Shown in pieces: positions 58,739-63,811 of a stretch of DNA of 64,000 nt (the first letter of the stretch is position 1; each line of letters starts with the position of its first letter). The DNA lies in NCBI RefSeq assembly GCF_000341735.1, contig NZ_KB455575.1, positions 1,946,867 to 2,010,866 of the forward strand. The letters run 5' to 3'. The notes below the pieces were generated by a model. That model saw only the letters and a list, made by a program, of their open reading frames with translations. It did not search any database and had not been told where the DNA came from. Made by a program: the position numbers and the translations under genes. Source of the DNA: Methylotuvimicrobium buryatense 5G. Its GTDB lineage: Bacteria > Pseudomonadota > Gammaproteobacteria > Methylococcales > Methylomonadaceae.

Positions 58739-59578
58739 TCATGAAGCATCTATTTGTTGGGAATGTTCACCTGGAATAGGATGTGTTCTATTAGGATATT
58801 TCTTAAGTATCGTTTTAACGTAATTTTGCGTTTCTCGATAAGGAGGTACACCTTTATAGCGTTCGACAGCACCCTCGCCGGCATTGTAAGCCGCCAAAAC
58901 CCACTCCACATTGCCGTTAAAATGCCGCATCAGCCAATGCAGATAAGCCGTACCGCCCTTGATGTTCTCAATAGGATTGAAAGTATCTTTGACACCGAAT
59001 CTTTCAGCGGTTGCCGGAATCAATTGCATCAAGCCTTGAGCATTTTTGTTCGACAATGCGCCGGGATTAAAGGCCGATTCGGCCTGAATAACCGCCATTA
59101 CCAGCTCAGGATCGATACCGTAATTCGGAGCAATTTTTTCGACCCACGATTTAACGATTTGGCGGTTGGGGTTTGCATGCTGCTCGGTAGTTATCGTTAA
59201 CTCGGGTTCAGGGCGACGACAACCGGAATCTTTCGTCGGCTTGATATCTTTAAATTTGATCACCATGCGCCTGGCATAAGGATCCCCCCCTTTTGCCGCC
59301 AACCTGAACCAATAAAGCGCTACCGATAAATTTCTCGACACTCCTCGGCCATTGAAATAAATAAAACCCAAATGGTAAGCCGATTCGACATCCGACATTA
59401 ATGCCGCCTTACAATACAGTTCGTAAGCTTTCCGATAATTTTTTTTCACGCCGCGGCCGTGCTCGTAAACCATCGCCATTTTACGAATTCCGCTAGGATG
59501 ATCGTCCGCAACTTCGGCTGCAAATAACGGCGAGGAAAAAAATAGAATTACGGCAAGTAGCCTTAATAGCCAACTCAT
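58739..59578 (-). CDS. Lytic transglycosylase with Sel1-like repeats
   Basis: A protein of 279 residues. The signal peptide (LLRLLAVILFFSSPLFAAE) is followed by two Sel1/TPR-like repeats (about 35-105; SAYHLGFIYFNGRGVSRNLSVALYWFRLAAKGG). The SLT domain (about 140-255) has the catalytic glutamate in AVIQAESAFNPGALS, GLMQLIPATAERFGV and LAAYNAGEGAVERY. It cleaves peptidoglycan glycan strands in the periplasm. The TPR fusion may dock partners. It is divergent from the caspase-like cassette at 59888, with a 309-bp spacer. Confidence 0.92.
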   Translation of the reverse strand: MSWLLRLLAVILFFSSPLFAAEVADDHPSGIRKMAMVYEHGRGVKKNYRKAYELYCKAALMSDVESAYHLGFIYFNGRGVSRNLSVALYWFRLAAKGGDPYARRMVIKFKDIKPTKDSGCRRPEPELTITTEQHANPNRQIVKSWVEKIAPNYGIDPELVMAVIQAESAFNPGALSNKNAQGLMQLIPATAERFGVKDTFNPIENIKGGTAYLHWLMRHFNGNVEWVLAAYNAGEGAVERYKGVPPYRETQNYVKTILKKYPNRTHPIPGEHSQQIDAS

Positions 59579-59887
59579 GTCAATCTCTCGTCTTTGATAA
59601 AATCATGAAAAGCAATTTTAAAGCCATAAAATAATATCCGTTATTTTTCTATTACCTATAATCGTCATGCAACTTGTTTAGCTGAATAACTGTAAAAAAT
59701 CCCGACATAACTCTTAGTGCCAATGCCGAAAATTGAGTTGAAACAAATATAACACCGGGAACACTCCAAAAACTTAGAACCGCTTCATGAACAACTCGAA
59801 AGTTGACCGAATTATAAATTTGCAGCTAGACTTCAAAAGTAATCAGTGTATAGCGCCTACCTAGGCTTGAATCGTCAATACAAAACC
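59579..59887. other. Divergent promoter region between transglycosylase and lipoprotein cassette
   Basis: A 309-bp spacer without a repeat element or reading frame. It must hold the promoters for the transglycosylase and the TssJ-like cassette. No box was recognised with confidence. Confidence 0.4.
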
Positions 59888-60409
59888 ATGAATAAAAACA
59901 ATCGAATTGATCTCTCACGCCTAAAAACGCAATGGCGGACTCTATTATTAAGCGCATTGCTACTCAACACTGCGGCATGCTCTACCAAGGAGGAAGTGAT
60001 TGCACCGACACCGGACCCTACAATACTCGAGCTAAAACTACAAGCAGGCAAACTTCTAAATCCCGATATTGAAGGCCGCGCATCGCCCTTGGTTGTTAGA
60101 ATATACCAATTCGAGGCAATCGATAAATTCAATACCAGCGACTTTTTCGCTATTTACGACAATGACACAGCCCTGCTGGGCCAAGACATTATCTTTCGGA
60201 AGGAACTGGAACTTCAACCTGATACAATCCGGAATTTAAGTTTGGAAAGCAAACCTGAAGCTCGTTATTTGGCTATCTTCGCGGCATTTCGCAACCTCGA
60301 TACCGCACAATGGAAAGCATCGATGAAGATCGCCCCCAATCAGACTAATAAGGTCAGTATTAATTTCGATCAATATACTGTGACACTGAATACAAAAAAT
60401 GCCGATTAA
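59888..60409 (+). CDS. Orphan TssJ/VasD-like lipoprotein
   Basis: ATG 59888 (MNKNNRIDL, 173 residues) is chosen; a GTG at 59846 would add 14 residues before the signal peptide. The lipobox LNTAAC gives lipidated C31. The following domain fits the TssJ family: SPLVVRIYQFEAIDKFNTSDFFAIYDND, a LLGQDIIFRKELELQPDT segment, RYLAIFAAFRNLDTAQWK, and a terminal beta strand. TssJ is the outer-membrane lipoprotein that anchors TssM of the type VI secretion system. No tssM, tssL, tssK or baseplate gene is in the window; instead the caspase-like gene follows 51 bp later. Other use of this fold is therefore likely. Confidence 0.87.
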   Translation: MNKNNRIDLSRLKTQWRTLLLSALLLNTAACSTKEEVIAPTPDPTILELKLQAGKLLNPDIEGRASPLVVRIYQFEAIDKFNTSDFFAIYDNDTALLGQDIIFRKELELQPDTIRNLSLESKPEARYLAIFAAFRNLDTAQWKASMKIAPNQTNKVSINFDQYTVTLNTKNAD

Positions 60410-60460
60410 AAGAGAAATTGATAGAACCCTTCATCACCTTGTTTAACAGAGGCGAAAAAC

Positions 60461-62896
60461 ATGTCAGGCAACAAGCCAAAACCACCGACACAGTATAAAC
60501 AGCTCAGCACAAAAAAAACTCTGTTTGTTGCGACATTGACATCATTGACATTATCCCTCGGCTGCCAAACAACCGACCCAACCAGCCCAGAAGGCCTAAA
60601 AGCCCTAAAAGGCTTTAATCCTCAAGACACAGACAAGCTATTCATCGTCGATTGCCTGCTACCCGGACAAGTCAGAAAGCTAGGCACGCAAATGACCTAC
60701 TTAACAGCCAGGCGCGCAATTAAAACGACCGCGGGCGAATGCGAAATTCGCGGAGGCGAATATGTCGCTTATGACCGAGCCAATTTAGCCAGCGCTTTAA
60801 AAATATGGCTACCGCTTGCACAACAAGGCGATCCCGAAGCGCAAATCAACGTCGGCGAAATCTACGAAAAAGGACTAGGCGCAGAGGCAGATCCTCGCTT
60901 AGCCGCCGAATGGTACCGAAAAGCCGCCGAAACGGGTCATTCGAGAGCGCAAATTAATCTCGGTTATTTATATGAAAAAGGACTCGGCGTTGAAAAAGAC
61001 CTGACTACCGCATTAAATTGGTATCGTAAGGCATCAGGCTTAGAAAATACCGACTTGCAATTTGCTTCGGTTGTCGAGGCACAATTTTCCAGCGCTCATG
61101 AACAAGAATTGGAAGCTTTACGGCAAGATGCCGCTCGACGTAAATTCGAGGCGGATCAATTACGAAGCCAACTAGCCGACACACAACGTCAACTCAGACA
61201 ACAGCAAGATGATCTACGCTCGATACAAAGAAACTTAGACCAAAAAAAACAACAGCTCGAACAGGAAAAAAACAAATCCACCCGGAACGAATCACTACTA
61301 AAAGCGCTGGATCAGGAATTAAAAGCCGGTCAAACCGAATTCGAAGCGCGACAAAATCAAATTTCAAAATTAGAACGCTCCCTGGAAACCAAAGAGAAAT
61401 CCATCAAACATAGAACTCAAGCCGCCCTAGCCCAGGAACAAAAAATCGTCGCTAGCGCCCCACAACAACCTATCATCGACGCCCAAGCAGGCAAAACACT
61501 GGCCAACGCCCGTAGCGAACTGCAAAAAAACGAAACCTTACTTCAAGAAAAAGAAAGTCATTACATAAAGATCTCCAATGAAATCAAACGATCTTTAGAA
61601 GCGGTAGGTTCATCGGCCGAACAAAGCGGTTCGCCGAGAGAACAACTAAGAGCGAAGGAAATTAGGGCTAATTTGGACTTACAAAAACAATCGTTGCAAA
61701 CGGTTGCACAGGAAGTCAAAACCTTAAAAACCCGAATTAACGAACAACGCAAAGCCGTAACAAAATTGGAAAGCGGTCAATTGATACAATTAGCCTCTGC
61801 CGCACCAACAATAGAAATTATCGATCCGCCGATGGTATTGACTCGAGGCGTTCCAAGCTTATTGTTAAGATCGATAGCCCCATCAAGAACCATAACCGGC
61901 AAAGTCGAAGCGCCGGCCGGACTTAAATCATTAGTGGTCAATGATAAACCTGAAAATATCGATACGCAGGGCTTCTTTAAGATAAATATCACTGCCACAG
62001 AAGCCACGACACCAATCAAAATCGTCGCCGTCGATAAAAAAGACAAAAGAACCAGTCTGAATTTCAACATCGTAACCCAAGAGGAAAGCGCCACTTCAAG
62101 CATCGACAGCCGACCGACGACACCCAGCAAACCAGGCCGATTTTATGATGTCGACTTCGGGCGTTATCATGCGCTCATCATCGGCAATAACGATTATACG
62201 GAACTACCGACACTGAAAACCGCGATCAACGATGCCAAAGCGGTCGAGTCGATTCTGCGCCAACGCTATGGATTCAAAACCACATTGCTGCAAAATGCCA
62301 ATCGCCACCAAATCATGACGGCGCTGAATACTATTCGCAATTCTTTGAAAGAAAACGATAACTTATTGATTTACTATGCGGGTCACGGAGAACGAGATAA
62401 AACCAGCCTGGCGGCTTACTGGCTACCTACCGATGCCGAAATCGACAATACCGCAAACTGGATTTCCAGCGACGATATCACCCGTTATCTGAATATCATC
62501 GCCGCACGGCACATCCTGGTTGTGGCGGATTCTTGCTACTCGGGCGCGATGACCGGAACGGCGATCGCTAGACTGCCGGACGGTATGCCCGAAGATAAAC
62601 GCGAAAAATGGCTGAAATTCATGGCAACACGGAAAGCACGAACCGTCTTGACATCAGGAGGCGTGGCTCCGGTTCTCGACGAAGGGGACGGCCAGCATTC
62701 AATATTTGCCCGAGCCTTTATCGATGCACTACAAAGCAATCGGGGTTTAATCGAAGATTATGATATTTTTCGTTCGGTATCGAAACAAGTCCGAACTTCG
62801 GCATCCCGTGTGGGCTTTACTCAAGCGCCGCAATACGCGCCGCTTCAACATGCCGGTCACGAGGGTAGCCCGTTCTTTTTCCTGCCCGGTGCTTAA
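60461..62896 (+). CDS. Sel1-repeat, coiled-coil, caspase-like lipoprotein
   Basis: An 811-residue protein; the start has AGAGGCG upstream. A lipobox (LSLGC) gives lipidated C35. Two Sel1 repeats lie at about 115-190. A Gln/Glu/Lys-rich coiled coil covers about 208-435. A beta-rich, Ig-like segment (about 448-538; TRTITGKVEAPAGLKSLVVN) follows. The C-terminal caspase-like (peptidase C14) domain covers about 565-808, with the catalytic histidine H642 in YYAGHGE and cysteine C692 in VVADSCYSG. ALIIGNNDY at its start is typical of metacaspase-like proteins. The substrate and trigger are unknown. An outer-membrane or periplasm-facing caspase is uncommon. It sits between a TssJ-like lipoprotein and an alpha/beta hydrolase, probably one operon. 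Confidence 0.9.
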   Translation: MSGNKPKPPTQYKQLSTKKTLFVATLTSLTLSLGCQTTDPTSPEGLKALKGFNPQDTDKLFIVDCLLPGQVRKLGTQMTYLTARRAIKTTAGECEIRGGEYVAYDRANLASALKIWLPLAQQGDPEAQINVGEIYEKGLGAEADPRLAAEWYRKAAETGHSRAQINLGYLYEKGLGVEKDLTTALNWYRKASGLENTDLQFASVVEAQFSSAHEQELEALRQDAARRKFEADQLRSQLADTQRQLRQQQDDLRSIQRNLDQKKQQLEQEKNKSTRNESLLKALDQELKAGQTEFEARQNQISKLERSLETKEKSIKHRTQAALAQEQKIVASAPQQPIIDAQAGKTLANARSELQKNETLLQEKESHYIKISNEIKRSLEAVGSSAEQSGSPREQLRAKEIRANLDLQKQSLQTVAQEVKTLKTRINEQRKAVTKLESGQLIQLASAAPTIEIIDPPMVLTRGVPSLLLRSIAPSRTITGKVEAPAGLKSLVVNDKPENIDTQGFFKINITATEATTPIKIVAVDKKDKRTSLNFNIVTQEESATSSIDSRPTTPSKPGRFYDVDFGRYHALIIGNNDYTELPTLKTAINDAKAVESILRQRYGFKTTLLQNANRHQIMTALNTIRNSLKENDNLLIYYAGHGERDKTSLAAYWLPTDAEIDNTANWISSDDITRYLNIIAARHILVVADSCYSGAMTGTAIARLPDGMPEDKREKWLKFMATRKARTVLTSGGVAPVLDEGDGQHSIFARAFIDALQSNRGLIEDYDIFRSVSKQVRTSASRVGFTQAPQYAPLQHAGHEGSPFFFLPGA

Positions 62897-62920
62897 CGAC
62901 AACACCGTTAAGCTGTAAGA

Positions 62921-63811
62921 ATGGGTTTACTTCGCTTCTCGACAAACAGCCCAGACGCCCTAAAAACGACAACAATACTCAAGCCGGGGATTGCCGGCTT
63001 AATCTTGTTGCTCTTACAGCTTAGCGGCTGCGCGACACCTTCAGAACGTTTTGAATCTAGCGCCAAAAACTTAGGGCTTACCAGCATTGAAATAATCGGC
63101 GAACCATTTCGCCATCGAGTCTATTTAAACCAAACTGCGGCGCAATCCGACACCATCCCGGTAGTCCATGTTTATTTAGATGGCGACGGCACGCCATGGG
63201 AAATGAACCGCTGGATTGCCGAAGATCCGACACCGAGAAACCCGCTGATATTGCGTTTAATGGCAGCAGATAAAGAACCTGCAATATTACTGGGCCGGCC
63301 CTGCTACTACGGGTTGCATACGACGGCCAACTGCCATTATGCACACTGGACGTCACATCGGTATTCGGCCGAGGTCGTCGAAAGCATGGCGACCGCCTTG
63401 CAGAAATGGCTAAGAAACGCAAAAACAACAAGCGTAGTTTTGATCGGTTATAGCGGTGGCGGAACACTCGCCACGCTGCTCGCGCCTTACTTTGAAAACA
63501 CAAGCATCGTTGTTACAGTCGCAGCCAACCTGAACACAAGTGCCTGGAGCCGACATCACGCTTATTTACCACTAGACGCATCTTTAAACCCGATTGACGC
63601 TCAACCTTTACCTGCCAAAATAAAACAAATTCATCTGGCCGGAGTAAACGACAGCAATGTTCCCGCTTCGATCATCGAATCTTTTAGCCGGCGGCAAGCC
63701 AATGCCGTTTACCTGCCAATCGATGGATTCGATCATGTGTGCTGTTGGGCAGACTTATGGCCCGATATTCTTAAAAGATATATCGCCCTTTCACTTGAGC
63801 GCCCCGATTGA
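62921..63811 (+). CDS. Alpha/beta-hydrolase lipoprotein
   Basis: A protein of 296 residues, starting 24 bp after the caspase-like gene. The lipobox LQLSGC gives lipidated C37. The alpha/beta-hydrolase fold has oxyanion-region VHVYLDGDGTPW, the nucleophile elbow GYSGGG (S178), a likely acid D244 (VNDSNVP) and histidine H272 (FDHVCC). Four or more cysteines (CYYG, NCHY, VCCW) may form disulphides. It is predicted to be a periplasm-facing esterase or lipase; the substrate is unknown. The shared lipoprotein sorting of all three cassette products suggests a common site in the envelope. Confidence 0.85.
   Translation: MGLLRFSTNSPDALKTTTILKPGIAGLILLLLQLSGCATPSERFESSAKNLGLTSIEIIGEPFRHRVYLNQTAAQSDTIPVVHVYLDGDGTPWEMNRWIAEDPTPRNPLILRLMAADKEPAILLGRPCYYGLHTTANCHYAHWTSHRYSAEVVESMATALQKWLRNAKTTSVVLIGYSGGGTLATLLAPYFENTSIVVTVAANLNTSAWSRHHAYLPLDASLNPIDAQPLPAKIKQIHLAGVNDSNVPASIIESFSRRQANAVYLPIDGFDHVCCWADLWPDILKRYIALSLERPD

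Follow-up and report, generated by a model that had tools for sequence, protein, structure and literature searches.

The window analysed here is a stretch of 64,000 nucleotides of the Methylotuvimicrobium buryatense 5G genome (C1:1946867-2010866; 5.07 Mb in two contigs, completeness 100). It contains a cassette of three genes that encode TssJ, an outer-membrane lipoprotein of the type VI secretion system (T6SS), a Sel1/coiled-coil/Ig-like/caspase protein, hereafter CASP, and an alpha/beta-hydrolase, hereafter HYD. In an earlier note, made from the letters of the window, TssJ was described as an orphan. In contrast to that description, the genome encodes a T6SS that is full apart from tssJ, and the only TssJ that we detected is the one in the window; therefore, this TssJ completes the set and is not an orphan. 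We consider it reasonably likely that the cassette is the displaced outer-membrane end of this T6SS locus, together with two accessory lipoproteins that would control the kinase-regulated assembly of the T6SS.

As the earlier note described, the three genes lie on the same (+) strand with intergenic gaps of 51 bp and 24 bp. They are probably co-transcribed, and the proposal that their products are made together is supported as probable co-expression. A scan for promoters and terminators near the cassette gave a signal near chance and was not used. The features of the cassette are as follows.

59888..60409, + strand: tssJ, type VI secretion outer-membrane lipoprotein (PF12790, TIGR03352, PDB match to PA0080/TssJ)
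60461..62896, + strand: CASP, predicted outer-membrane lipoprotein of 811 aa (domain searches, homologue alignment, model)
61055..61798, + strand: coiled-coil region of CASP, residues 199-446 (AlphaFold2 helices, SMC/Rad50-like coil matches)
62156..62893, + strand: C14 caspase domain of CASP, residues 566-811 (Peptidase_C14, PF00656, 4e-25)
62921..63811, + strand: HYD, putative lipoprotein alpha/beta-hydrolase of 296 aa (Lipase_3, 3.6e-05; invariant triad residues)

The first product matched PF12790 with an E value of 3e-36 and 124 bits (cut-off 27), TIGR03352 with 122 bits (cut-off 31.6) and, in the PDB, PA0080/TssJ with 1.5e-16. It is 173 aa long from its ATG, and its reading frame is already open from a GTG at 59846. 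No second TssJ match was found across the whole genome, and a wider contig scan with TssJ gave close relatives only.

A T6SS core for this TssJ to serve (TssA-C, E-H, K-M, Hcp, VgrG, PAAR) exists in the genome. The locus is found at C1:876-902 kb, approximately 1.1 Mb from the window, and its first part encodes Fha/TagH (TIGR03354), TssK, TssL (DotU and OmpA domains), a 150-aa open reading frame (ORF) and TssM (1271 bits). The middle part encodes TagF fused to a PP2C phosphatase, TssA, TssB, TssC, Hcp and a 301-aa ORF, and the last part TssE, TssF, TssG, ClpV/TssH, a C70 peptidase, VgrG and DUF6931. Within the next 18 kb (902-920 kb) are genes for PAAR, a second VgrG, DUF2169, a PAAR-like/GHH2 nuclease toxin and two Ser/Thr kinases, the latter (Pkinase) at about 915.8-919.9 kb, beside the core. 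Genes for Fha, kinase and PP2C phosphatase are therefore all present at this locus, a gene set of the PpkA/Fha/PppA type, while tssJ is absent both from the locus and from the adjoining 18 kb. The earlier note saw no type VI gene here besides the TssJ, which does not hold for the genome; in the window, some of the other genes were scanned. Two genes of this region, those for the C70 (AvrRpt2-type) peptidase near vgrG (L010:15905-16444) and for the PAAR-like/GHH2 nuclease toxin (L148:9149-10303), are candidate T6SS cargo of this genome.

Conservation of gene order, which the earlier note had proposed as a check, was observed: tssJ-CASP-HYD is kept in all six genomes of the same genus (g1) and in a sister genus (g6). 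In the mapped g1 loci (L002, L003, L005), the cassette occupies the same site, between parC/thioesterase/transglycosylase and genes read as rlmB and rnr (names read from the sequences, not via a family search), with ordinary chromosomal genes on either side and no visible island. In g6 (L072, L085), the cassette directly adjoins, and is divergent from, fha-tssK-tssL-tssM-tagF, and the T6SS proteins there resemble those of M. buryatense closely (TssK 83% and TssM 80% identical). The order was tssJ-HYD-CASP-fha-tssK in L074 and tssJ-CASP-fha-tssK-tssL-tssM in L075, and CASP lies within about 40 kb of T6SS genes in L076, L077, L078, L079-L081, L082, L088 and L089. In a quick tree, the CASP of the window fell in a family clade of 23 rows with an SH-aLRT support of 100; 20 of these rows were labelled T6SS-linked (the six g1 rows on account of the adjacent tssJ), two far and one undecided. 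Since most of the remaining rows lie near T6SS genes, the simplest reading of these sequences is a departure of the cassette from the T6SS locus in the ancestry of g1.

CASP and the T6SS also tend to occur in the same genomes. Among 151 genomes of the family, canonical TssK was present in all 37 with a close CASP (a match with E below about 1e-120, a cut that was set after the list was seen), as compared to 20 of the 114 others (Fisher p 5e-21). Counted by genus, the figures were 13/13 versus 10/16 (p 0.02), which is the safer comparison, since the genome-level p treats related genomes as independent, and the association at this level is modest. At this cut, the genomes with a close CASP did not lack tssK, a point that the earlier note had proposed to check. 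In some other genomes of the family, in g22 and elsewhere (G007, G022, G048, G070, G088, G135, G141, G149), TssK was present and TssJ undetected; these may have a TssJ-less T6SS or a very divergent TssJ.

The earlier note had suggested that the cassette could form a system of its own for envelope stress, self-killing or contact, anchored by an orphan TssJ domain, and a protease and a hydrolase at the envelope, both with intact active-site residues, would fit such a role. However, the cassette provides the only detected TssJ for a T6SS otherwise without one, and relatives carry it inside, against or near full T6SS loci. A cassette always found next to a full type VI locus, which the note had named as counting against its proposal, is close to what we observed, although not every family member conforms. 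The single site kept in the mapped g1 loci likewise shows no visible island, and a comparison with PADLOC defence families, made in view of a possible role in phage defence, yielded only weak, domain-level matches of CASP (caspase PDLC02987 and coiled coil) and none for TssJ or HYD. We consequently set phage defence aside and regard a self-contained system as very improbable.

The middle protein of the cassette is a caspase-like C14 peptidase that, as judged from its sequence, has an intact His/Cys dyad. From the N-terminus, it consists of a lipobox cysteine (C35), a conserved N-terminal domain (~58-110), Sel1 repeats (~118-192; 6.8e-21), the coiled coil, an Ig-like part (~449-540) and the C14 domain. 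The earlier calls of TssJ, Sel1, coiled-coil and caspase domains were supported; the Ig-like part, which had no Pfam match, is plausible in view of strands at 466-525 in a low-confidence model. The catalytic residues are H642 (CAC, 62384-62386) and C692 (TGC, 62534-62536), which the note had reported as intact, and they lie in GHG and DSC motifs. Both were invariant in 25/25 full-length homologues, and the catalytic columns were invariant across 27 aligned caspase domains; loss of these residues in relatives, which would have spoken against the note, was not seen. The aspartate two residues before the catalytic cysteine, D690 (codon at 62528-62530), was also invariant. It resembles the metacaspase S1 position and would predict cleavage after Arg or Lys.

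A profile of CASP caspase domains gave MALT1 paracaspase and metacaspases as its best PDB matches. CASP shares the C14 profile and both catalytic motifs with MALT1 and the metacaspases/orthocaspases, but differs from them as a predicted exported lipoprotein with Sel1 repeats and a long coiled coil. The best NCBIfam match of the domain was the EACC1-associated caspase (NF047832), although at 76.9 bits it was well under the family cut-off of 140. The coiled coil, which also gave SMC/Rad50-like matches, was the only long part of CASP modelled by AlphaFold2 with pLDDT mostly 70-90 (the models were built from four near-identical sequences, with a mean pLDDT of 45 for CASP and 38 for HYD). At 1.5 A per residue, a coil of ~250 residues would measure ~37 nm fully extended and about half of that if folded back once, and in this model-based estimate it may be long enough to reach far across the periplasm.

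All three cassette products are predicted to be outer-membrane lipoproteins, because each has a lipobox-type cysteine (TssJ C31, CASP C35, HYD C37), as the earlier note had recognised, and none has Asp at +2. The TssJ lipobox is LLLNTAAC-S, with the Cys codon at 59978, and relatives are similar by pattern. The pattern was matched in 41 of 46 CASP homologues; among the five others, three with FAPGC and one with YGGC, further from the listed start, are near-matches by eye. The signal peptide and lipobox of HYD are conserved as well.

The family assignment of HYD is weak (Lipase_3, 24.1 bits versus a cut-off of 22). Its residues Ser178 (63452), Asp244 (63650) and His272 (63734) were invariant in 19/19 homologues and form the probable catalytic triad, assigned by the GYSGGG motif and by position. 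Sel1-repeat immunity proteins and alpha/beta-hydrolase (Tle) effectors are both known from T6SSs, and on these grounds CASP and HYD might be an effector-immunity pair, with HYD as a lipase effector and CASP as a periplasmic immunity protein of the Sel1 type. In contrast to effectors loaded in the cytoplasm, HYD has its own conserved export signal and lipobox; CASP, which likewise carries an export signal, retains a caspase site that would be superfluous for immunity, and the pair is conserved in genomes without TssK. We judged this explanation unlikely. HYD was also found beside a very divergent TssJ-like protein (E ~1e-12) in G026 (L086:8320-9974), where no TssK was found, and in G051 (C147:9895-11270), which has a divergent TssK (3e-27).

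Outside the family, CASP is less closely tied to the T6SS. In a class-wide sample, 34 of 369 genomes had a CASP match at E <= 1e-45; with the M. buryatense genome left out, TssK was detected in 14 of the 33 CASP genomes versus 52 of the 335 others (odds ratio 4, p 5e-4), and only one genome (G499) had both on one contig, 26 kb apart. In 279 genomes sampled across the phylum, CASP matches were mainly partial, and five of the matching genomes were outside the class. One plasmid record had a partial match (30.5%). We mapped 20 class-wide loci outside the family, which were among the highest-scoring rather than a random draw, some belonging to the same genome family. At a distance of up to 6 kb from CASP, a Ser/Thr kinase was present in 16/20, HYD in 11/20 and a barrel protein in 11/20; the barrel proteins that were scanned have an autotransporter domain, often with Calx-beta. 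As a yardstick taken from the M. buryatense genome only, nine kinases in 5.07 Mb would mean that a few percent of random points have a kinase within 6 kb. The adjacent kinases are of more than one type, and thus this neighbourhood seems to recur rather than to be inherited as one block.

Kinases adjoin CASP in many loci of the family, too. Among the M. buryatense kinases, the one that best resembles those next to CASP (54-65% to several) is encoded at approximately C1:917.8-919.9 kb, beside the T6SS. By eye and with a loose pattern, repeated DDATV/DETRL-type motifs were seen in the N-termini of the kinase at L148:17801-19888 and of CASP-adjacent kinases; they look like possible phosphothreonine sites for Fha. 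The genome also encodes a full-length CASP paralogue, 42% identical and with its own lipobox (C1:3368239-3370509; L071:8234-10594), which adjoins an autotransporter-barrel gene. No T6SS gene was seen in the 19 kb taken around it, and at least four more genomes of the genus have a match that resembles it in length and identity.

It is possible, though doubtful, that CASP and HYD belong to an autonomous envelope module of kinase, caspase, hydrolase and autotransporter, serving for example surface-protein processing or contact sensing, with T6SS nearness a matter of co-localisation and the adjacency of tssJ a chance rearrangement. The class-wide neighbourhoods and the barrel-associated paralogue are what such a module would leave, and eight of the kinase, seven of the HYD and six of the barrel loci are in genomes without detected TssK, so the T6SS is not the sole use of CASP and HYD. 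On the other hand, no family genome with a close CASP was without canonical TssK at the chosen cut, CASP sits between tssJ and fha in L074 and L075, and the tssJ-CASP-HYD unit is kept in two genera at two different sites. These observations favour a displaced T6SS end with accessory lipoproteins.

Besides the loci without TssK, several results weigh against this preferred reading. In G079, G011, G086, G043 and G084, about 100 kb or more separates CASP from tssK, or the two lie on different contigs. Four genomes just under the cut (G006, G056, G091 and G098; E 1e-115 to 1e-118) are without TssK, so the count of 37/37 depends on the cut chosen; G045, also just under it, has TssK. Twenty T6SS-bearing genomes of the family have no close CASP, which makes CASP accessory rather than essential, and incomplete genomes can hide genes. 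The kinase gene does not adjoin the cassette in g1. Finally, the models of CASP and HYD were too poor for tests of fold or of partners.

The Sel1 and SLT lytic transglycosylase gene upstream of the cassette deserves separate mention.

58739..59578, - strand: divergent neighbour, Sel1 + SLT lytic transglycosylase (domain search)

It adjoins the cassette in g1 relatives. We considered it as a peptidoglycan opener for the T6SS and dropped this idea; because no such gene was found beside CASP in the other genera mapped, it is probably not part of the system.

In the TagQRST-PpkA threonine phosphorylation pathway of Pseudomonas aeruginosa, a membrane Ser/Thr kinase, Fha and PppA act downstream of one or more outer-membrane lipoproteins. 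The arrangement proposed here is similar in combining outer-membrane lipoproteins with a membrane Ser/Thr kinase, Fha and a phosphatase, but CASP and HYD are different enzymes, and no TagR-type (FGE-sulfatase) domain was found among the ORFs scanned around the T6SS locus, which were only part of those present. With the TssJ/TssL/TssM complex, the likeness is direct: the TssJ of the window clearly belongs to the family, and TssL and TssM are encoded in the genome. The difference is that tssJ lies 1.1 Mb from the rest and is probably co-transcribed with a caspase and a hydrolase gene. By analogy, the nearest functional precedent for CASP is TssW of Acidovorax citrulli. The gene for this outer-membrane protein lies between ppkA and fha; TssW positions the T6SS and binds TssM and PpkA as well as, weakly, TssJ (PMC12607579). 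In family relatives, kinase and fha genes are also found near CASP; the likeness is one of description, and no caspase is mentioned in that paper. TagV of Serratia marcescens, according to its abstract, is an outer-membrane lipoprotein that supports T6SS firing besides TssJ and is proposed to bind peptidoglycan; the abstract names no caspase (PMC7614798). It shows that an accessory outer-membrane lipoprotein can support firing, and CASP resembles it, too, by description. In the titles and abstracts of open-licence papers, no description of the kinase/CASP/HYD/barrel module was found.

If the cassette is indeed the displaced end of the T6SS locus, the scheme that we infer for localisation, physical partners, substrate and the directions of control and recruitment is as follows. 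TssJ would be the outer-membrane anchor of TssJLM, whose other components would come from tssL and tssM at a distance of 1.1 Mb, and CASP and HYD would be accessory outer-membrane lipoproteins of a T6SS controlled by PpkA, Fha and PP2C. CASP, held at the outer membrane by its lipid, would span the periplasm inward via the coiled coil, while its Sel1 and Ig-like parts would bind partners, of which the periplasmic tail of the kinase and/or TssM/TssJ are the likeliest. Regulated cleavage by the caspase domain would then license, position or reset the assembly of the T6SS via Fha, and HYD would serve as a hydrolase acting locally in the envelope. The module of Ser/Thr kinase, caspase, hydrolase and autotransporter barrel, which exists elsewhere without a T6SS, is the probable source from which CASP and HYD were recruited. 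More speculatively, and as an idea we hold only tentatively, this could be a gammaproteobacterial envelope signalling module, in which a transmembrane Ser/Thr kinase, an outer-membrane caspase lipoprotein on a periplasm-spanning coil, a hydrolase lipoprotein and an autotransporter-type barrel signal surface contact through a periplasmic caspase cut; methanotrophs might have wired this module to Fha, with the cut triggering T6SS assembly.

A lone tssJ should not be called an orphan before the whole genome has been checked. Only for a few species is it known which envelope proteins direct the timing and the site of assembly of a kinase-controlled T6SS. If the preferred reading is true, this control would gain a proteolytic step through a caspase lipoprotein with ties to both the T6SS and PpkA-type kinases, and an exported bacterial caspase would have one testable role.

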